Below, in pieces: positions 3,446-13,862 of a stretch of 14,173 nt of DNA (position 1 is its first letter; each line of letters begins with the position of its first letter). This stretch comes from Gemmatimonadota bacterium. Lineage in GTDB: Bacteria > 4572-55 > J002. The stretch covers positions 1-14,173 of the forward strand of contig RFFQ01000051.1 of assembly GCA_003697105.1 (NCBI GenBank). Reading direction: 5' to 3'. Below the pieces are notes generated by a model. The model was not told where the DNA came from. It was given only the letters and a program-made list of their open reading frames with translations, and did not search any database. The position numbers were made by a program, and so were the translations under genes.

Positions 3446-3898
3446 TTATAAGGACTCTGGTTTACTGTATTTCAGAACCGGTATCATCATCCCTAAAAAG
3501 ATGATATTTCGGATAATACTGATCCACAATTCCGTACTTGAACCCGGGTTGCTTCCTCCCGCTGAGGTACATCCACAATGAATATTTAACCCCCGAAAAA
3601 TTGCACTGCTAAGGGCGACAATAAAAACCAATAACATCCCGTTAATCAGGATTACCGCGCCTTTGGGCATATAATTGAGGACGAGAAACAAACCGGCTAA
3701 AAATTCAATCCACGGCAGAACTAAGGCGATGAGATTTGTATATGCATAAGGAATCAATTTATAATTTTGAATATCTTTTGCGAATTCCAACGGCTCGACA
3801 ATTTTATGTAAGCTCGCATAGATGAAAAAGATGCCCACGATCAGGCGGAAACTCATCACCACGAATTCATTTTTCATAATCGCTTGTAATTTTGCCAT
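3446..3898 (-). CDS. MauE/DoxX-family redox-associated membrane protein
   Basis: A 150-residue polytopic membrane protein with about four hydrophobic helices. The N-terminal block (R-L-I-V-G-I-F-F-I-Y-A-S-L-H-K-I) and the E-F-x-A-G-L-F-L helix are typical of the MauE/DoxX superfamily. A Cys-Gly-Cys pair in the last loop (RGLNIHCGCTSAGG) is typical of the redox-associated MauE-like members, which are thought to support disulfide or thiol chemistry at the inner membrane. The reading frame stays open to 3943, but the ATG at 3898 is preferred: it shares one base with the upstream rhodanese stop (TAATG) and has GAGGAG about ten bases before it. Translational coupling to the rhodanese gene is therefore likely. 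Precise substrate unknown. Confidence 0.82.
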   Translation of the reverse strand: MAKLQAIMKNEFVVMSFRLIVGIFFIYASLHKIVEPLEFAKDIQNYKLIPYAYTNLIALVLPWIEFLAGLFLVLNYMPKGAVILINGMLLVFIVALSSAIFRGLNIHCGCTSAGGSNPGSSTELWISIIRNIIFLGMMIPVLKYSKPESL

Positions 3899-4455
3899 TA
3901 TTCGTGCTCCTCGGATGAGATCGGATAGCCGGCGGCAAGCCATTCATTCCACCCGCCGATAAACACAAAGATTCGGGAGTACCCTAGGGTAATGAGTTCT
4001 TCCGCCAGCAATTTGGAAGCGTCACAGTCTGCTCCGTCACAATAGACAACGACCAGTTGATCCGGGGGAATATCTGCCAATTGGTCCATGTAATCCATCA
4101 CCGCGTCATACGGAATATTGATGGCGCCTTCAATGTGTCCTTCCGCGTACAGATCGGCATAGCGAGCATCAATAAAGACACCCATTTTTTGCTGGTAGAT
4201 GTCGTGATATGCCTGTTCAAGGGTCACGGCTTTAAATGCTTCCAACGTTGAGCCGTGCTGGTAACGTGGGGGCAACTCCAGAGGGGTTGATACTGAATCG
4301 ACAACTGGAGGGGATTCTTCGGGTATTCCTGCAAATTCAACCGCTTTTTTCTGAGCGATCCAGCCGACGGGATGTTTGCGGGTCATGTTGGTCGTGATGC
4401 CAATGGCTATCGCCAATAACACAATCAGTATTGCTTGTAGAATGGGTTTGACCAT
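3898..4455 (-). CDS. Membrane-anchored rhodanese-domain protein
   Basis: Rhodaneses carry sulfane sulfur as a cysteine persulfide. This 185-residue protein has one N-terminal hydrophobic segment (about 4-22), which would place the rest in the periplasm as a signal anchor, then a linker. A single rhodanese domain follows at about 75-182, including F-I-D-A-R-Y-A-D-L-Y-A-E-G-H-I-E-G-A-I-N-I-P and the active-site loop V-V-V-Y-C-D-G-A-D-C-D-A-S. Cys139 is the likely catalytic cysteine, and a second cysteine (Cys144) lies in the same loop. The gene begins 9 bases after the DUF1573 stop, with AGGA as ribosome site, and is coupled to the MauE/DoxX gene below. The context suggests sulfur or thiol handling outside the cytoplasm; the acceptor is not visible. 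Confidence 0.88.
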   Translation of the reverse strand: MVKPILQAILIVLLAIAIGITTNMTRKHPVGWIAQKKAVEFAGIPEESPPVVDSVSTPLELPPRYQHGSTLEAFKAVTLEQAYHDIYQQKMGVFIDARYADLYAEGHIEGAINIPYDAVMDYMDQLADIPPDQLVVVYCDGADCDASKLLAEELITLGYSRIFVFIGGWNEWLAAGYPISSEEHE

Positions 4456-4464
4456 ACCTGAATC

Positions 4465-5166
4465 CTATTTATTTTTGGGTTTTGGCACAAATCCGACCAC
4501 CGGAATTTCGAGCGCTGGATACGTTGGGGGGTCAAATTCAATCCGTATCCGTGTGTTGATGCGCTCCACCGTTTTTGCCTCGCAGATGCCGCGCAAATTC
4601 ACTTGGGATTCCGGCGGAATCTCATTTGCCGGTAGCTCAAACCGGACATTTTTTAAGCTATCTACGGCACTCAGGGTTTTGATCGATATGGGTTGGTTGG
4701 TATTGTTGATCAAGCTGATCGTTCGTTCGCGGGTCTCACCGATCCAGACGCGGGCAAAATCCATCAGGGGTGGTTCGTACTCAACCGGCACGATAACCAC
4801 ACCGGCGATATGGAATTCTTCCACTGGGCGGCGTGGATCATTTGTCAACAGTTTGATGCGGTGTCCAACGAGTCCGCGATCTTTACTGGAATCATACCGG
4901 ATGGCAACACTGCCCGTCGCGCCCGGTACTAAGCGCTCCGCTGAGAGGTGCGCCAGTGTACAGCCGCACTCAGTCTTGACTTCATGGATAATCAGGGGGG
5001 CATCTCCCCGGTTTTGGAAATGAAACTCAAAGTGTAGTGTGTCCCCTTGAAAGATCGTGCCAAAGGGGGTGCGTAGCGGGTTTAGCCGTTCAATTTGCGG
5101 GGCGGCATTCGCCCCCCCGAGCATCCCGCTAAACAGTATTAGGCTGAGAGCGATCATTCGGTGCAT
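4465..5166 (-). CDS. Exported DUF1573-domain protein
   Basis: A 233-residue protein with a signal peptide (hydrophobic residues about 4-19, Ala-Asn-Ala cleavage near 21) and two Ig-like beta domains. The first (about 40-130) is a clear DUF1573 domain: F-x-F-x-F-x-N-R-G-D-A-P-L, then I-x-x-V-K-T-E-C-G-C-T, and K-D-R-G-L-V-G-H with T-N-D-P near its end. The second half (about 135-228) repeats the fold weakly and has one further Cys. No lipobox is seen. DUF1573 has no settled biochemical role; the conserved Cys-Gly-Cys could bind metal or take part in thiol chemistry. It sits 6 bases from fabL and 9 from the rhodanese gene, clearly within one operon. The ribosome site is weak, so it may depend on translation of fabL. 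Confidence 0.88.
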   Translation of the reverse strand: MHRMIALSLILFSGMLGGANAAPQIERLNPLRTPFGTIFQGDTLHFEFHFQNRGDAPLIIHEVKTECGCTLAHLSAERLVPGATGSVAIRYDSSKDRGLVGHRIKLLTNDPRRPVEEFHIAGVVIVPVEYEPPLMDFARVWIGETRERTISLINNTNQPISIKTLSAVDSLKNVRFELPANEIPPESQVNLRGICEAKTVERINTRIRIEFDPPTYPALEIPVVGFVPKPKNK

Positions 5167-6615: not shown

Positions 6616-9384
6616 ATGCGTCACCTTATTTTTACTGGTTTAATCAGCCTGTTGGTCGTGTTTCCGGTTGTAATGGCGGCAGAAATTGCGCCGGAATTGG
6701 AAGCACAACTGCAACAGATGGACGATGAGGCGTTTATTACCGTCATGATCGAAATGGCGGATCAGTTTGATACGCCGGCATTGGACCGCGATTTGAAACA
6801 ACGCCGTGCTACCCGCCAACAGCGACATTATGAAGTTGTTACGGCGTTGCAAGATTGGGCAAACCGTACCCAAGCAGATGTTCTCAACTGGCTTGACCAG
6901 CAAGAATTGCAGGGTAAGGTTCAGAATGTGCAAAGTATGTGGATCAGTAATCTGATTTTTGCGGATATGCAAAAAGCGGTTGTTTATCAACTGGCGGCTT
7001 TTGATGAAATTGCTACGCTCCACCCGAACTATGAAATGGAACTCATTGAACCCGTTCGCACCGAAAATAGTCGGGAAACCGGTTCCTTACGGCGAGTTGA
7101 ATCCGGTTTGGAAGCCATCCGCGCTGATGAAGTGTGGGCAATGGGCATCAATGGTGAAGGCACACTGGTTTCAAACGTGGATTCCGGTGTGGATGGGAAT
7201 CATCCTGCGTTAGCCGACCGGTGGCTCGGTCTGGAAAGACCGTGGCAAGAGTGCTGGTATAATGCCCAAGACCCCAATGGTTCTCAATTTCCCATCGCGG
7301 TGGACGGGGCACACGGCACGCACACCATGGGGACGGAAACCGGTCTGGGGGTGGCTACAGGAGATACCATCGGGGTGGCATGGGGTGCTCAATGGATTGC
7401 CGCCGGTGTGGAATTCAGTGGTGGTAGTACCCAACGGCTCGTCAATTCCCTGCAATGGATCGCCAACCCGGATGGTGACCCGACCAACGATGATGATGTC
7501 CCTGATGTCTGTAATAATTCGTGGGGAAGTTCGACCCCATGCCGCACAGTATATGATGGTGTGATCCAAAATTGTGAAGCCAACGGGTGCGCGATTGTCT
7601 TCTCCGCCGGAAATTCAGGTCCGGGACCCCAAACGATTGGTAGTCCGGCAAGTTCAATTTTGACTCCTTACACGGTCTTTGCCGTAGGTGCGGTGAATGG
7701 GCATGGTAGCAACCCACCGTATCCGATTGCGTCCTTTAGTAGCCGAGGTCCCTCCGGTTGTGATGGGCAAACTATCAAACCGGAAGTGTCCGCGCCGGGG
7801 GTGGAAGTCCGCTCCTCCGTGCCGGGCGGTGGGTATCAAAGTTCCGGCTGGAGTGGCACCTCGATGGCGGCACCGCATGTCTCGGGAACGATGGCACTGA
7901 TGCGCCAAGTTGACCCCAATATTGAAGTGGATGTGATGAAAGATATTCTGATGAGTACCGCCATTGATCATGGCAGTCCCGGTGAAGATAATGATTATGG
8001 TTGGGGTGTCATTGATGCGTACGCTGCGGTGATGGAAGTCTTTGCCCGGCTCTCTGCTTTTGAAGGGACCGTGACAGATGCCGAAAGCGGTGAGGAACTG
8101 CGGGAAACGCATGTTTATATTGAGGATACCGCGTTTGAGACCGTCTCCGATGTGAATGGCTTCTACCATCTCTCTGCCCAACCCGGTGAATATTTTATCA
8201 GCGCCGAGCGGTTTGGGTATTATGATTTTGTCTCGGAAATCAGTTATACCATTGCCTCCCAAGAAACGATCATCGTTGATATCGAAATGGATGCCCGCCC
8301 TACCGGTACGCTTTATGGCATGGTGACCGATACCCAAGGTAATCCGTTGGAAAATGCCGGATTTTCACCGGTGGGTGTGCCGGTGGACCCCTTTTATACG
8401 GACGGTAATGGGGAATATGCTGTTGAACTGCCGGGCGATTATGAATACACGTTGTTTGTGTATGCTCCCGATCATGACCCGCAGGAAATTACAGTTGAAA
8501 TCCCAGCCGGTAGCGAGGTAGAACTCAATGTGGAGATGGTTTTTGTGCAAAGTTTTGAAGAGTCTGATGGGGGTTTTACATTAAGTGGGAGTGGGAATGA
8601 GTGGGAGTGGGGTGCTCCGACTGAAGAAGGAGGACCCGCTTTTGCCTACAGTGGTGACTATGTTTGGGGCACGGATTTGGATGGCGTCTATGGTTCCAAC
8701 CGGCGTTATAATCTGATTACCCCCACGTACCATATTGGCATTGATTCCACTGCTAAATTGGTATTTTATACGTGGTACGAACTCAGCGAAGGGTGGGATG
8801 GCGGCAATGTCGCTATTACCACCAATGCCGGTGAGGATTGGACGATCATTGACCCGGTGGGTGGTTATCCCGATGATTCCATTGTGGGATTAGGTGGTGC
8901 GCGTGGTTTTACGGGTGATTCCGATGGTTGGGAGCGGGTTGAATTTCCGCTAGCGGACTATCTTAATCAAGATGTGCAATTCCGCTTCCGCTTTGGTAGC
9001 ACAAACGATCCCCAACGAGGTTGGTTTATTGACAATTTCGCGCTGTACGGTTCGACCGATTTTGGGATCGATGTACCTTCCACCCAGACGCAGATTCAAA
9101 CACCGCTTTACTATGAGCTACACCCAAATTACCCCAATCCGTTTAACCCGTTTACGCTGATCCATTACCAAATTCCTCGGTCGGATTGGGTCTCCTTGCG
9201 AATTTACAACAGCGAAGGCCGGTTAATACGGACACTCGTCGAGGGTGAACAACCCGCCGGCGCCTATTCCGTAGAATGGGATGGTAAACGAGCCGACCGA
9301 CGCCCCGTACCGAGCGGTATCTACTATTACCGCCTCGATGCCGGAGAGTTTAGCCAAACCCGTAGTATGGTTCTCCTCAAGTAA
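6616..9384 (+). CDS. Secreted subtilisin-family (S8) protease with C-terminal sorting domain
   Basis: A 922-residue secreted serine protease. It has a signal peptide (about 1-22) and a propeptide-like region to about 160. The S8 catalytic domain (about 165-470) carries the triad Asp189 (V-D-S-G-V-D), His233 (A-H-G-T-H-T) and Ser416 (G-T-S-M-A-A-P-H), with oxyanion Asn333 in S-A-G-N-S-G-P. Two carboxypeptidase-regulatory-like beta domains follow (about 480-560 and 561-643), then a jelly-roll domain rich in Trp and Gly resembling those of bacillopeptidase F or immune inhibitor A (about 645-815). The C-terminal FlgD-Ig-like sorting domain opens with L-H-P-N-Y-P-N-P-F-N-P and ends in M-V-L-L-K. 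Such tails are known or predicted type IX secretion signals in Bacteroidota and related phyla. The start is supported by AAGGAG nine bases upstream. It is monocistronic and ends at a shared bidirectional terminator. All catalytic residues are intact. Its target is unknown; nutrient scavenging is plausible. Confidence 0.95.
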   Translation: MRHLIFTGLISLLVVFPVVMAAEIAPELEAQLQQMDDEAFITVMIEMADQFDTPALDRDLKQRRATRQQRHYEVVTALQDWANRTQADVLNWLDQQELQGKVQNVQSMWISNLIFADMQKAVVYQLAAFDEIATLHPNYEMELIEPVRTENSRETGSLRRVESGLEAIRADEVWAMGINGEGTLVSNVDSGVDGNHPALADRWLGLERPWQECWYNAQDPNGSQFPIAVDGAHGTHTMGTETGLGVATGDTIGVAWGAQWIAAGVEFSGGSTQRLVNSLQWIANPDGDPTNDDDVPDVCNNSWGSSTPCRTVYDGVIQNCEANGCAIVFSAGNSGPGPQTIGSPASSILTPYTVFAVGAVNGHGSNPPYPIASFSSRGPSGCDGQTIKPEVSAPGVEVRSSVPGGGYQSSGWSGTSMAAPHVSGTMALMRQVDPNIEVDVMKDILMSTAIDHGSPGEDNDYGWGVIDAYAAVMEVFARLSAFEGTVTDAESGEELRETHVYIEDTAFETVSDVNGFYHLSAQPGEYFISAERFGYYDFVSEISYTIASQETIIVDIEMDARPTGTLYGMVTDTQGNPLENAGFSPVGVPVDPFYTDGNGEYAVELPGDYEYTLFVYAPDHDPQEITVEIPAGSEVELNVEMVFVQSFEESDGGFTLSGSGNEWEWGAPTEEGGPAFAYSGDYVWGTDLDGVYGSNRRYNLITPTYHIGIDSTAKLVFYTWYELSEGWDGGNVAITTNAGEDWTIIDPVGGYPDDSIVGLGGARGFTGDSDGWERVEFPLADYLNQDVQFRFRFGSTNDPQRGWFIDNFALYGSTDFGIDVPSTQTQIQTPLYYELHPNYPNPFNPFTLIHYQIPRSDWVSLRIYNSEGRLIRTLVEGEQPAGAYSVEWDGKRADRRPVPSGIYYYRLDAGEFSQTRSMVLLK
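8587..8612 (+). other. G-quadruplex-type motif inside the protease gene
   Basis: Four runs of at least three G separated by 3, 7 and 3 bases lie on the coding strand. They come from a short direct repeat of AGTGGGAGTGGG that encodes the Gly/Ser/Trp/Glu stretch opening the jelly-roll domain. The pattern meets the usual G4 definition; function is unknown. Confidence 0.45.
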
Positions 9385-9497: not shown

Positions 9498-10985
9498 TTA
9501 ATACCAATTCATGAACTCATTTTTCAGATATTCGTGCATCATGGCATTTCGATCGGTTTCGCTGGGAGTTTCCAGATATTTGAATGGCGAATCTTCCTCG
9601 TTGGATAAGATGGAATGGCAGGTGGTGCAATCATAAGCGATGGTAGAACCATCTTCGGCAACTAGATTTTGATTATGGCAACGAAAACATCCGTCTTCTG
9701 TGCCGCGATGCCCGATATGGCTGGGATATGTACCCCATTCGATCTGCATCTGATGGTGGATATTACGGTTATACACCGCCTGTAACACCGTAATTGCTTG
9801 ATCAATTGCCGCCATTTTTTGCCCGGCAATGCGGGGATAGTTGCGCTGGTAGAACCCGGATAGATGGGCTTCAATACCACTCATTGCCGCCGCCTGATTG
9901 GGATAATTCGCGGTGATGGCGCTCAATGCTTCTCGTTTGAGATAAGGCAATGACCGGTCTAACAATCCCTTGCGAATCCGGTCGTCAATTGCGGTTTCGG
10001 GGTCTTCATAGATGTGGGTTGCCCGATTGTGGCAATCAATACAATCGAATGTTCGGATATCCTCGGCGTGGGCATCCTCGTGCAGGCGTTGGTTCGTATA
10101 GCGCTTAAAACTGCCATCTTCTTGCCGGACTTCCACCCAAATCATTTTTTTGCGCTCATCATTTACGGAAGCATAGCGAACTTCATTTTCTTTACCGATG
10201 TGCCAATGAATGCCGGCTCTTTCACCCGGATGGCCGGTGTCGATTTTCAGCCCCAAGGTGGTGTACTTTGGTGTGGAAGTTGAATCGCGGTCATAATGGA
10301 TAATCGTTTTGAGTTTACTTCCGTAAAATTTATCGGGCCAATGACATTTTTCACACGTTTCGCGAGCGGGGCGTAGGCGGTGAACCGGTGTGGGTATCGG
10401 GCGACTATAGATATCGAACGCCGCCAACACCATTTGCCGGGCGCCGTTCAACTTCGAGTCGATCAGGGCATCCACACCTTCTCCCACATGGCATTCCACG
10501 CACTTCACGCGGGCATGGGGGGAATCCTGATACGTTGTCCATTCTGGGTTCATGACGGTATGGCAGGTTGTGCCGCAAAATTCTGGTGTATCCATAAAAT
10601 GCAAACCCCGTACACTTGCCCCACCCATAAAAATCACATTGATTAATGTTAGGATGGCGACGGTCAAGAAGAGCCGCGATCCGGTTTGATGTGCCACCAC
10701 ATCATCTGGGGAAAAGCGCTCGTTCAGCAGTTCTTTGGTTGATTTTCCCCGTTGTTTGGTGTAGCGCCACCAGCCGATGGGGATCAGCACTAGCCCGATC
10801 AAAAAGAGGGTGGGGAAGGTCAAATAAGTAATCAGCCCCATGTACTGATTGGTAAAGATGCCGAGAATCCGGGCAAATTCTAAAATAATAAAGGTAATAA
10901 AGGAGGACGTTGCCAGTACTACCCCAATTTTGCCAAACCAGTTGACCGAAATACCGCGCAGAAAATTCAGATATTTTTGAAACAT
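9498..10985 (-). CDS. Membrane-anchored NapC/NirT-type multiheme cytochrome c
   Basis: NapC/NirT/NrfH proteins oxidise quinol at the inner membrane and pass electrons to periplasmic enzymes. Numbered from the ATG at 11000 (500 residues), three hydrophobic helices (about 24-48, 54-78, 109-128) precede a periplasmic domain. The diagnostic block is F-C-G-T-T-C-H-T-V-M-N-P-E-W, then S-P-H-A-R-V-x-C-V-E-C-H and R-P-I-P-T-P-V. There are six heme sites: one CX3CH (142-147) and five CX2CH starting at 167, 216, 320, 438 and 458. Ordinary NapC/NrfH proteins have one helix and four or five hemes. The extra helices and length recall the larger ImcH-like inner-membrane cytochromes, which is a resemblance and not a firm assignment. 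I prefer the ATG at 10985, which has GGAG nine bases before it; the one at 11000 has only AGG. It is the last gene of the operon, 72 bases after the octaheme gene. Confidence 0.9.
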   Translation of the reverse strand: MFQKYLNFLRGISVNWFGKIGVVLATSSFITFIILEFARILGIFTNQYMGLITYLTFPTLFLIGLVLIPIGWWRYTKQRGKSTKELLNERFSPDDVVAHQTGSRLFLTVAILTLINVIFMGGASVRGLHFMDTPEFCGTTCHTVMNPEWTTYQDSPHARVKCVECHVGEGVDALIDSKLNGARQMVLAAFDIYSRPIPTPVHRLRPARETCEKCHWPDKFYGSKLKTIIHYDRDSTSTPKYTTLGLKIDTGHPGERAGIHWHIGKENEVRYASVNDERKKMIWVEVRQEDGSFKRYTNQRLHEDAHAEDIRTFDCIDCHNRATHIYEDPETAIDDRIRKGLLDRSLPYLKREALSAITANYPNQAAAMSGIEAHLSGFYQRNYPRIAGQKMAAIDQAITVLQAVYNRNIHHQMQIEWGTYPSHIGHRGTEDGCFRCHNQNLVAEDGSTIAYDCTTCHSILSNEEDSPFKYLETPSETDRNAMMHEYLKNEFMNWY

Positions 10986-11012
10986 AGTTGTGTTCTCCAT
11001 TCGCGCCTATTT

Positions 11013-11043
11013 CGGGCAAGCGCGGGAATTCCACACTTGCCCG
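11013..11043 (-). other. Stable intercistronic hairpin between the two cytochrome genes
   Basis: On the minus strand CGGGCAAGTGTGG pairs with CCGCGCTTGCCCG over 13 bp, including two G-U pairs, around a 5-base loop. The plus-strand version would have two A-C mismatches, so the structure suits minus-strand mRNA. No U tract follows. A role in mRNA processing or in protecting the upstream octaheme message is plausible. Confidence 0.6.
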
Positions 11044-11057
11044 GTAAAATCATCATC

Positions 11058-12410
11058 TTAGTTTTTCTGGGCGGCTTCTTCAAACAGCGGTGCATAAATT
11101 TTTTGAATCTCGCCGGAACGAATGGCGGCTTTGAGTTCCTCTGTCGGTTTGTTGACCCATTCGTGCATGGGGTCATTGGCAATCATATCATCAATGATTT
11201 TGTTGACATCCGGATCGTTATATTTGCGAGCTTCGGGGATTAGTTTAAAGTAAAAGTGCTGAGCAACTTCATAAAATCCGTGCCACCACGTGTAGTCTGG
11301 ACCCATCATGGACGCCCCATGACGCGCTCGACGCCCCTCATGATGCCAAAGCTCCCAATAAATCCACTCTATTTTATTACTAAAGGATGCTTTATTTTCC
11401 AGCAATCCTTTTTCCTTGATGGTGTTGAGAATAGCAGTTGCGGGTTCCGCATATTTTTCATTGTAGAGCCGCACGGTGGCATCATATTGGTAAAAGTGCC
11501 CATCGGTGAAACCGGGACCATGACACGCGACACACACATCTTGCATATTTGCCCGGCGTTGTTCCCAATTATCCAGATGTTTAGATTTTGGTGGACGGAG
11601 CGTCCATGCAATGCGGGTTCCGGCATCATGCGTGATTGGTTGATTCTTGGTGGCGGACATGTGACACGTGGCACACGTGGGGGCAACGTAGTAATCCTCA
11701 CCCACCACCCATTTATCCGAATCCAGATTCATTTTATCAATGTTAGTGTAATACGTGTTGCCGTGTTTGGACTCTTCATACACTTCTTTTTGCGGGTGAT
11801 CCGGTCCCAGATGGCATTTGGAACAGGCTTCCGGCTGGCGTGCCTGCGCTTTATCAAAGCTGTGACGGGTGTGGCACGCATTACACGATCCGTTTGAACC
11901 GTCCGGGTTAAGCCGCCCAATACCGGAATTGGGCCACGTTGAACGGTGGAGCTTATTCGGCGAAGATTCGTCAATCTTCACTTTTGCTCCGTGACAACTT
12001 TCACAACCCAGTGCGGCAACGGGTGCACCGGCGGTCACATGTGCCAGATACGCATCTTTGGAATCCAGAATTTTACCGGCGGAGGCATGATATGACTCTT
12101 GAAATTCTGTCGATTCTTTCTCATGACAACGCCCGCAGTCCTTCGGCGTTACCAACGTGGCAATGGTGGCACCATGATGCTCATAAGCATCTGGATCGTC
12201 CTTTTCTGCAACGTGACAACTGATACAGGTCACTTTATGAAACGCATGTTGGGACTCATACCATTGCTTGTACAAGCCGGGGGATTTCTCCTTGTGGCAG
12301 GTCATACATTCTCCGGCAACTTTGGGATCCACGCTGGATAATGCCGGATTGGCGCTGAAGATCACCACGATAAACGTCGTGATCACTCCTATTAACACAA
12401 AATTTCTCAT
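11058..12410 (-). CDS. Octaheme cytochrome c of the hydroxylamine oxidoreductase (HAO) family
   Basis: A periplasmic octaheme enzyme of the HAO superfamily, whose members oxidise hydroxylamine or hydrazine or, in non-nitrifiers, are thought to reduce nitrite or hydroxylamine. The 450 residues have a signal peptide (about 1-26) and eight CX2CH sites starting at 35, 62, 92, 136, 176, 196, 246 and 293. HAO hallmarks are G-P-D-H-P-Q-x-E-x-Y-E-E-S-K-H-G (202-217), T-H-D-A-G-T-R-I near 260, and A-R-H-G-A-S-M-M-G-P-D-Y near 362-373. The C-terminus is a heme-free helical segment without a membrane anchor, shorter than nitrifier HAO. Whether the tyrosine that cross-links the catalytic heme in true HAO is present cannot be told without alignment. 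The frame is open to 12434, but the ATG at 12410 is correct: AAGGAGG lies about seven bases upstream and the signal peptide starts there. The neighbouring NapC-like and porin genes point to respiration rather than nitrification. Confidence 0.92.
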   Translation of the reverse strand: MRNFVLIGVITTFIVVIFSANPALSSVDPKVAGECMTCHKEKSPGLYKQWYESQHAFHKVTCISCHVAEKDDPDAYEHHGATIATLVTPKDCGRCHEKESTEFQESYHASAGKILDSKDAYLAHVTAGAPVAALGCESCHGAKVKIDESSPNKLHRSTWPNSGIGRLNPDGSNGSCNACHTRHSFDKAQARQPEACSKCHLGPDHPQKEVYEESKHGNTYYTNIDKMNLDSDKWVVGEDYYVAPTCATCHMSATKNQPITHDAGTRIAWTLRPPKSKHLDNWEQRRANMQDVCVACHGPGFTDGHFYQYDATVRLYNEKYAEPATAILNTIKEKGLLENKASFSNKIEWIYWELWHHEGRRARHGASMMGPDYTWWHGFYEVAQHFYFKLIPEARKYNDPDVNKIIDDMIANDPMHEWVNKPTEELKAAIRSGEIQKIYAPLFEEAAQKN

Positions 12411-12437
12411 TAGATTACCCTCCTTACAGGTCATCGT

Positions 12438-13673
12438 TTAGAAATTAACAATGGTTTGTCCATAAACCCAACCGGATGCGTCTTCACCGTACCAATCCTT
12501 GAAAACATCTCCGGGTGAAAAAGCAGAAATACCGCCAGTAAAGCGAATATTGGCGTTGTAGGTGTAGATCAGAGTCAGGTCGATCTCCGTCCCAAGAGCT
12601 GTTTCTTCCGTTCCATCCGAGAGAAGCGCATCCTGAGCTAGACTGAACAGGTGCAAATCGCCCTTAAACAATAAATTCTCACGCGGTGTGAAACCGGATT
12701 TCAGCATGATGTCAACCAGACCCTTGTTTTGAGTATTCACCGGTATGTTGGTGAAATAATCCATGAAGCCATAAAACTTATGGTTAGTGGCGTATAAGGT
12801 ATCGAAGCATTCATATTCTTCGGTTTCTGGATCATCGCCCGTCAGTATATCCATTCCCAGACCGACAAACGGTTTCAGATGATGATTGAACTTATACATC
12901 GCGAAAACGGTCAACATACCTGCCGCAATGTCGGTATCACCAAAATTGGTGGTACCTCCTTGAAATGCTAACTCAGCTTTTAGATTCAAACCACCAAAGT
13001 TCCCCTTGAAGTAGGTGCCAATCGTGGCTCGCTCCAACAGCGCGTCTTCATCAGCGTTTTCTTGGGCATCCTGCTCCGCCAACACATACACGTCAATGGC
13101 ATAATTATCGGCGGGTTTAATCTGGGTATATACCCCGGAAAATGTCTGGTCACCGTCATTTTCGTCCGGCGCTTGATTCGATTCATAAAGTTGTGTATTG
13201 AATAGATCGATCTGCACTTTACCGAATGATAACATCGCCACGCCGCCATCGAAAGACCGGCCCACATTGTGCCAACCAACGGCTCCGATTAACCGTTCAT
13301 TGCCATAAACCATCTCCATACGACCCATTTTGATCGATAACCAATCCCACCAGAGCCGGTTTACTTGAAAATAGGCTTGGTGCAGATCGACATTCGCCGT
13401 AGAGGAGAGGGTAGAGGCTTCTGTCCCGTAAATTCGAGAATCTTGCAACTGAACAAAAGCAAGCCATCCCTGAGGAGAGGTCGCTTTGATGTTGATCCGG
13501 GTTCGTAACGCGGTAACGTCATATGGATCGGTATCACTGTTGAAATCTTTGTCAATACTTTCTCCACGAACCCGTAATTGCCCGCCAATAGTAAGTTCTG
13601 TTTCTTGTGCTCCTAACCAAGACGGGGTAATTAGTAAAACAGATAACACTATTAGACTGAAATAACGCATCAT
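12438..13673 (-). CDS. Outer-membrane porin of the alginate-export type
   Basis: A 411-residue outer-membrane beta-barrel. A signal peptide (about 1-22, cleaved after L-G-A) is followed by alternating beta-strands. The early block A-L-R-T-R-I-N-I-K-A-x-S-P-Q-G-W-L-A-F-V-Q-L-Q-D-S-R, and the later G-R-M-E-M-V-Y-G-N-E-R-L-I-G with W-H-N-V-G-R-S-F-D-G-G, resemble alginate-export (AlgE-type) family porins. The last residue is Phe, as expected for a barrel. The size suggests about 16-18 strands, well below the roughly 26-28 strands of MtrB-type electron conduits, so passive uptake of a small anion is more likely. The start codon is one of two adjacent ATGs (13673 or 13670), with GGAGG just upstream. 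It is the first gene of the operon, 27 bases before the octaheme gene, and is presumably controlled by the palindrome at 13803. Confidence 0.85.
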   Translation of the reverse strand: MMRYFSLIVLSVLLITPSWLGAQETELTIGGQLRVRGESIDKDFNSDTDPYDVTALRTRINIKATSPQGWLAFVQLQDSRIYGTEASTLSSTANVDLHQAYFQVNRLWWDWLSIKMGRMEMVYGNERLIGAVGWHNVGRSFDGGVAMLSFGKVQIDLFNTQLYESNQAPDENDGDQTFSGVYTQIKPADNYAIDVYVLAEQDAQENADEDALLERATIGTYFKGNFGGLNLKAELAFQGGTTNFGDTDIAAGMLTVFAMYKFNHHLKPFVGLGMDILTGDDPETEEYECFDTLYATNHKFYGFMDYFTNIPVNTQNKGLVDIMLKSGFTPRENLLFKGDLHLFSLAQDALLSDGTEETALGTEIDLTLIYTYNANIRFTGGISAFSPGDVFKDWYGEDASGWVYGQTIVNF

Positions 13674-13774
13674 AAAACCTCCATAACAAGTTTGAAAAAT
13701 GAAACCTTTCGCGGGATATGTATTTGTACTGCCATCCTTCCCGGAAAAGCTAGATAAATAGAACTGTAGGATAA

Positions 13775-13780
13775 TAGATA
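13775..13780 (-). promoter_or_regulatory. Candidate -10 box of the porin/octaheme/NapC operon
   Basis: TATCTA on the minus strand would start transcription near 13768, exactly 41.5 bases from the centre of the TTGAC-N4-GTCAA palindrome. An alternative is TATTAT at 13776-13771. No good -35 box is seen, as expected for an activator-dependent promoter. Confidence 0.4.
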
Positions 13781-13802
13781 GGTAAAACCGGAATGACTTA
13801 CC

Positions 13803-13816
13803 TTGACTTTAGTCAA
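13803..13816. promoter_or_regulatory. CRP/FNR-family-like operator upstream of the porin/cytochrome operon
   Basis: TTGAC-TTTA-GTCAA is a perfect 5+4+5 palindrome with the same layout as the FNR site (TTGAT-N4-ATCAA). It lies 130 bases before the porin start codon and just past the STAS-gene terminator, so it belongs to the cytochrome operon. The distance to the candidate -10 box fits a class II activation site. The regulator gene is not in the window. Confidence 0.6.
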
Positions 13817-13836: not shown

Positions 13837-13862
13837 AAAAAAAGAGCCAGATGTCTGGCTCT
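13837..13862 (-). terminator. Intrinsic terminator of the STAS-domain gene
   Basis: Minus strand: AGAGCCAG, a 4-base loop, CTGGCTCT, then a run of seven T. It lies 50 bases after the STAS stop codon and insulates that gene from the porin operon. Confidence 0.9.

Follow-up and report, generated by a model that had tools for sequence, protein, structure and literature searches.

A putative HcpR-controlled operon of Gemmatimonadota pairs an octaheme HAO-family cytochrome with an ImcH-family membrane cytochrome and probably serves nitrogen-oxide reduction

The DNA analyzed here (the window) comprises positions 1 to 14,173 of contig RFFQ01000051.1 of a Gemmatimonadota bacterium (assembly GCA_003697105.1). 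According to its open reading frames and a domain search, the minus strand between positions 9498 and 13816 encodes, in order of transcription, a porin, an octaheme cytochrome of the hydroxylamine oxidoreductase (HAO) family, and a six-heme membrane cytochrome. We consider it likely, with a probability of roughly 0.7, that this operon specifies a periplasmic nitrogen-oxide reductase module, comparable to NrfHA or to a reverse hydroxylamine:ubiquinone redox module (reverse-HURM), that would act on nitrite, nitric oxide (NO), or hydroxylamine. A preliminary description of the same DNA had listed the three co-directional genes in this order, which was confirmed, and had proposed a role in the respiration of hydroxylamine or nitrite, which the operator and the gene neighborhoods of relatives support as likely.

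Octaheme cytochrome

Among the sequences of solved structures, the octaheme protein is most similar to IhOCC (4qo5; E value, 6e-45) and is also similar to HAO of Nitrosomonas (NeHAO; 8e-20). The top fold matches of its predicted model (mean pLDDT, 77.5) are NeHAO (Z score, 10.7), IhOCC (9.8), and KsHAOr (9.4), and these sequence and fold matches bear out the HAO hallmarks that had been attributed to it. Besides eight c-type hemes, the protein retains a heme-4 motif (C144-H148) and an Asp-His pair (D212-H213), both of which are invariant in 32 octaheme homologues and align with residues of NeHAO that we take to be the catalytic P460 heme site (C229-H233) and its distal pair (D267-H268). The feature of oxidative HAO and hydrazine dehydrogenase (HDH) enzymes that it lacks is the cross-linking tyrosine, whose presence the preliminary description had suggested checking by alignment.

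In NeHAO, this residue (Tyr467) lies in the motif NPGGWTY, and the aligned residue of the octaheme protein is His385, in GPDYTWWHG (alignment via L106/1fgj); in an alternative register, it is Trp384. Because neither register places a Tyr at the cross-link position, reductive chemistry is favored, and the enzyme is probably a reductase. A His at this site has been described as the ancestral reductive state (PMC12758564), while Hao of Campylobacterota has a Trp there and a Met eight residues before it (PMC8940962, after Haase 2017), a spacing that fits Met376 and Trp384, which are both invariant among the octaheme homologues. As an HAO-family octaheme with a residue other than Tyr at the key position, the protein probably belongs with the reductive class of the epsilon-Hao and HAOr kind. 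It is not an NrfA, since it has eight CxxCH motifs, no CxxCK motif, and no pentaheme organization. Orthology with IhOCC was also considered and was ruled out, because a paralogue from the same genome (C177) scores far higher against 4qo5 (466 bits, versus 157 bits for the window protein); furthermore, the distal residues differ (Asp-His in the window protein, Asp-Val in IhOCC).

The gene for this IhOCC-type paralogue (C177; L179:4479-13890) lies near genes encoding an 845-amino-acid Tat-signal molybdopterin oxidoreductase, a TorD-sized protein, and Fe-S proteins, along with molybdopterin-synthesis-like genes. Another octaheme gene of the genome (C143; L180:3480-5986) directly follows a sodium-pump decarboxylase beta-type gene and encodes a short HAO-like protein of 439 amino acids, in which a Tyr in the motif NPDYALWYG is aligned with the HAO cross-link.

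Conservation of the gene order

A genome scan recovered 80 relatives of the octaheme protein with 49 to 72% identity, from Zixibacteria, Acidobacteriota, Calditrichota, Neomarinimicrobiota, Aminicenantota, Planctomycetota, Myxococcota, Ignavibacteriota, Eisenbacteria, Krumholzibacteriota, KSB1, Gemmatimonadota, Nitrospinota, Nitrospirota, Desulfuromonadales, and others. An ImcH-type partner is encoded directly downstream of the octaheme gene in 53 of the 72 loci with enough downstream sequence, representing more than 12 phyla, which exceeds chance. The expectation that three genes would be adjacent in relatives therefore holds for this pair and only in part for the porin: a family hidden Markov model places a porin gene in 18 of the 80 loci, 11 times upstream and 7 times downstream, and in one genome it is unlinked. 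Thus, the porin is not the fixed, dedicated first gene that it had been taken for.

The pair occurs twice, in opposite orientations, on a planctomycete contig (JAKQDH010000118.1; L038/L039). The octaheme genes of Desulfuromonadales (L080 to L085) mostly have no adjacent ImcH-like gene, but an ImcH homologue is encoded at an unlinked site in several of these genomes.

Genes near the pair in other genomes include those for the hydroxylamine reductase Hcp (L010, L050, and L067) and, directly upstream of the pair, NrfHA (L055), as well as genes for NapH-like and ferredoxin proteins and Rrf2 and cupin genes. HcpR-like Crp/Fnr regulator genes are found around the pair in eight loci, and the best solved match of a neighboring regulator is the NO-responsive regulator DNR (4.7e-29).

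HcpR-type operator and its targets

The sequence TTGACTAAAGTCAA, upstream of the porin gene, is a perfect palindrome of the form TTGAC-N4-GTCAA, and its end coincides with position 13816, the last position of the range given for the operon previously. It equals the HcpR1 consensus wyTTGACnnnnGTCAArw, the operator of predicted Geobacter and Desulfuromonas regulons that comprise hcp, frdX, nrfHA, and nar (Rodionov 2005, PMC1274295). The exact box is present in the upstream regions of 8 of 69 octaheme operons, compared with a mean of 0.021 and a maximum of 1 in 1,000 shuffles, and the looser form TTGA-N6-TCAA is present in 14 such regions, with 1.1 expected. Eight further intergenic copies are found in octaheme loci: four directly before octaheme genes that the automatic upstream window had missed, three beside a regulator gene, and one between the pair and hcp. 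A loose search for FNR boxes (TTGATN4ATCAA, two mismatches) gave a weak signal (16 matches, with 10 expected). In Desulfuromonadales, boxes were seen upstream of the octaheme genes of L081 to L084.

The window's genome contains 14 exact copies of the box, versus approximately 4 expected at equal base frequencies and 1 for a control pattern. Most of them fall within genes, and one is located 85 bp upstream of napD-napA. Boxes upstream of napA-type genes were found in four genomes, counting this one: in a genome of the same class (G001), a tetraheme gene and napA (napMA) follow 121 bp after the box, and the others are G099 and G098. G099, in which no porin gene adjoins the octaheme operon, encodes an unlinked porin from the same family (34% identity; 4e-67) under the identical 14-mer. 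Boxes were also found 174 bp upstream of hcp (G145) and 69 bp upstream of a ferredoxin gene (G133) whose product is 58% identical to the ferredoxin beside the pair in L025.

The closest HcpR-like regulator in the window's genome (C41) has the recognition helix PETLSR, as does the regulator beside the G001 operon, with Pro and Glu at the specificity positions. The residues described for the TTGAC-N4-GTCAA box are Ser/Pro180 and Glu181 (Rodionov 2005, PMC1274295), and C41 is a regulator with matching recognition residues. Together, operator and neighborhoods support a tie of the operon to nitrate reductase, Hcp, NrfHA, and HcpR-type regulation.

The same observations bear on two other readings. 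The HcpR-type operator and the hcp neighbors would suit a detoxification system for NO or nitrosative stress, with the octaheme protein as an HcpR-controlled scavenger of NO or hydroxylamine; this idea overlaps ours and differs in purpose, and we regard it as rather unlikely, as a dedicated quinol oxidase and an operator common to nap suggest respiratory use. Reduction of sulfur compounds, a hypothesis published for related HAO-family proteins (clade I of Auka "Tharpellota"; PMC9213671), is highly improbable here, since operator and neighbors link this octaheme family to nap, hcp, and nrf.

Nitrogen-oxide genes and points against the proposed role

The window's genome, which is 96.85% complete, encodes NapA (1008 bits, with a cutoff of 904) at C93, together with what is presumably NapD, to judge from its size, position, and sequence. 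Neither NrfA, cd1 NirS, copper NirK, nor Hcp was detected in it, and no protein of the genome matched PF02335 (NrfA). Among 50 octaheme-bearing genomes, full-length NrfA was found in 2, Hcp above the cutoff in 12, and a close NapA in approximately 10; we accordingly rejected the generalization that Hcp or NapA accompanies the octaheme gene in a genome.

Several observations weigh against assigning the operon to nitrogen-oxide reduction. Most of these 50 genomes lack a close NapA, Hcp, and NrfA, and the absence of a gene from a metagenome-assembled genome is weak evidence. The exact box is missing from most octaheme upstream regions, and an identical spacer in two boxes of the window's genome was dropped as evidence because other pairs among the 14 sites share spacers too. 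Nitrite could instead be reduced by the other octaheme proteins of the genome (C177 and C143), which leaves the window enzyme as the best but not the sole candidate for this reaction. Finally, Tyr381, which precedes the cross-link position by one helical turn, is invariant and might form an alternative cross-link. Along with the Asp-His pair shared with NeHAO, this residue is what speaks for an oxidative hydroxylamine or hydrazine dehydrogenase that feeds the quinone pool, a possibility that we consider exceedingly improbable given the His or Trp at the cross-link position itself and the reductive nature of the nitrogen genes identified as neighbors.

Membrane cytochrome

The membrane partner has three N-terminal transmembrane helices and six heme sites, of which the first is an atypical CX3CH (CGTTCH) and the other five are CX2CH. 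Adding the eight sites of the octaheme protein gives 14, the number counted previously, with the refinement that one of them is CX3CH. This composition satisfies the published definition of ImcH, namely, three N-terminal transmembrane segments, an adjoining CX3CH, and 5 to 9 CX2CH motifs (Zhong and Shi 2018, PMC6295460). The atypical motif reads CGT[A/T]CH in nearly all of the octaheme-linked partners listed and CGETCH in L076. In a 39-row tree, 14 ImcH homologues without octaheme linkage, including those of Desulfuromonadales, form one clade (support, 100/100), and the octaheme-linked partners fall outside this clade of other sampled homologues; one row (L206) duplicates the L076 protein and was miscounted there as unlinked. 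Tree position and definition together identify the partner, at the level of sequence, as a member of the ImcH family from a separate, octaheme-linked subfamily. A structure search with the model of the ImcH-like protein (pTM, 0.56) returned unspecific helical matches alone (best Z score, 6.5).

The resemblance to ImcH noted previously thus stands at the family level, while the extracellular electron transfer (EET) that had been suggested from it does not follow. An ImcH-family cytochrome that feeds a porin-cytochrome route to minerals would fit the role of Geobacter ImcH in high-potential EET. However, the locus contains no outer-membrane multiheme protein, the porin is an ordinary 411-amino-acid PF13372 protein rather than a large MtrB-type barrel, the octaheme protein has an HAO fold with a conserved catalytic site, the partner's subfamily lies outside the clade of ImcH homologues that are not octaheme linked, and both the operator and the neighbors are of the nitrogen-oxide type. 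EET is therefore unsupported, and we judge it very unlikely.

Proposed mechanism

In the nitrogen-oxide reductase module that we favor, the porin would probably admit nitrate and nitrite, and NapA would produce nitrite in the same periplasm. The ImcH-family cytochrome may oxidize menaquinol at the inner membrane and hand the electrons to the octaheme enzyme, which, having an HAO fold without the Tyr cross-link, could convert nitrite to ammonium and/or hydroxylamine; NO and hydroxylamine would probably be further substrates for reduction. An HcpR-type Crp/Fnr regulator is predicted to bind TTGAC-N4-GTCAA, with NO as the proposed signal, and may thereby coactivate the operon, nap, and, in other genomes, hcp.

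Operon boundaries and other features of the window

The coordinates of the operon are given in Table 1. The start of the octaheme gene was moved to Met9 on the basis of an alignment of homologues and of a Shine-Dalgarno sequence (AAGGAGGG), and homologues and a ribosome-binding site likewise make Met6 the probable start of the membrane cytochrome. A predicted intrinsic terminator sets the operon apart from upstream transcription, and the earlier view that it is self-contained is supported.

Table 1. Features of the operon and its surroundings (window coordinates)
Feature	Position	Strand	Remarks
Intrinsic terminator of the preceding STAS-domain gene	13843-13862	(-)	AGAGCCAGACATCTGGCTCT, then a T run
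Palindromic operator, HcpR1-type box	13803-13816	(-)	Approximately 130 bp 5' of the porin ATG
Porin	13673-12438	(-)	Outer membrane; 411 aa; PF13372 (Alginate_exp), 131 bits; signal-peptide-like N terminus; C-terminal Phe
Octaheme HAO-family cytochrome	12434-11058	(-)	PF13447; 8 CxxCH; likely translation start at 12410 (Met9)
Fourth heme motif, C144-x-x-C147-H148	11991-12005	(-)	Aligned with NeHAO heme-4 site C229-H233
Asp212-His213	11796-11801	(-)	Aligned with NeHAO Asp267-His268
Trp384-His385	11280-11285	(-)	Position of NeHAO cross-linking Tyr467; no Tyr
ImcH-family NapC/NirT cytochrome of the quinol-oxidizing type	11000-9498	(-)	500 aa; PF03264; likely start at 10985 (Met6)
Atypical CX3CH heme site, CGTTCH	10560-10577	(-)	Next to the membrane domain

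Elsewhere in the window, a small minus-strand cluster (3446-5166) comprises MauE/DoxX, rhodanese, and DUF1573 genes and is adjoined by a gene for a FabL-like reductase, and positions 6616 to 9384 encode a subtilisin-family protease with carboxypeptidase-like repeats and a C-terminal sorting domain of the type IX secretion system type.

Significance

We encountered neither the octaheme-ImcH pair nor its HcpR-type operator in the open-access literature searched. HAO-family octahemes beyond those of nitrifiers, anammox bacteria, and Campylobacterota are frequent in anaerobes and mostly have no assigned role; one such group has been suggested to carry out sulfur reduction (PMC9213671). With the shared operator, one large subfamily, present in more than 12 phyla, gains a testable assignment to nitrite and NO metabolism. 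At slightly less than even odds, we tentatively suggest that an HcpR-controlled, ImcH-fed octaheme reductase constitutes a further widespread ammonifying nitrite reductase system beside NrfHA and ONR/epsilon-Hao. If so, such a system would exist in a dozen or more phyla, mostly uncultured, and would have been overlooked by NrfA-based surveys of dissimilatory nitrate reduction to ammonium, a capacity that would then be predicted in genomes without nrfA. Part of the ImcH family would serve nitrogen-oxide respiration rather than EET, which would cast doubt on ImcH homologues as markers of iron reduction.

Comparison with known systems

The membrane partner shares with Geobacter ImcH its three N-terminal transmembrane helices and a CX3CH plus several CX2CH motifs, but it has five of the latter rather than six and belongs to an octaheme-linked subfamily that is not tied to EET genes. 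The octaheme protein has the fold of IhOCC from Ignicoccus hospitalis and differs from it in the distal pair. With Kuenenia HAOr (6h5l), an enzyme that reduces nitrite, it shares the GPDHP active-site motif and the lack of a cross-linking Tyr; however, the similarity amounts to 73 bits, the gene context is different, and NO is the reported product of HAOr. Like NrfHA, the operon combines a NapC-superfamily cytochrome of the quinol-oxidizing type with a periplasmic multiheme reductase, but the latter is an octaheme enzyme with an HAO fold instead of the pentaheme NrfA.

The reverse-HURM of Nautilia and Campylobacter consists of epsilon-Hao, NapC/CycB, Nap, and Hcp (PMC3701875). The operon departs from it in the adjacent porin gene, in the HcpR-type operator, in the Hcp that was not detected in the window's genome, and in the partner, an ImcH-family protein with six heme sites and three helices rather than a tetraheme NapC, as the preliminary description had recognized. 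The two systems are alike in having an HAO-family octaheme without the cross-linking Tyr, a NapC-superfamily quinol oxidase (putative here), a periplasmic NapA, no detected NrfA, NirS, or NirK, and, in some relatives of the window's operon, hcp near the pair.

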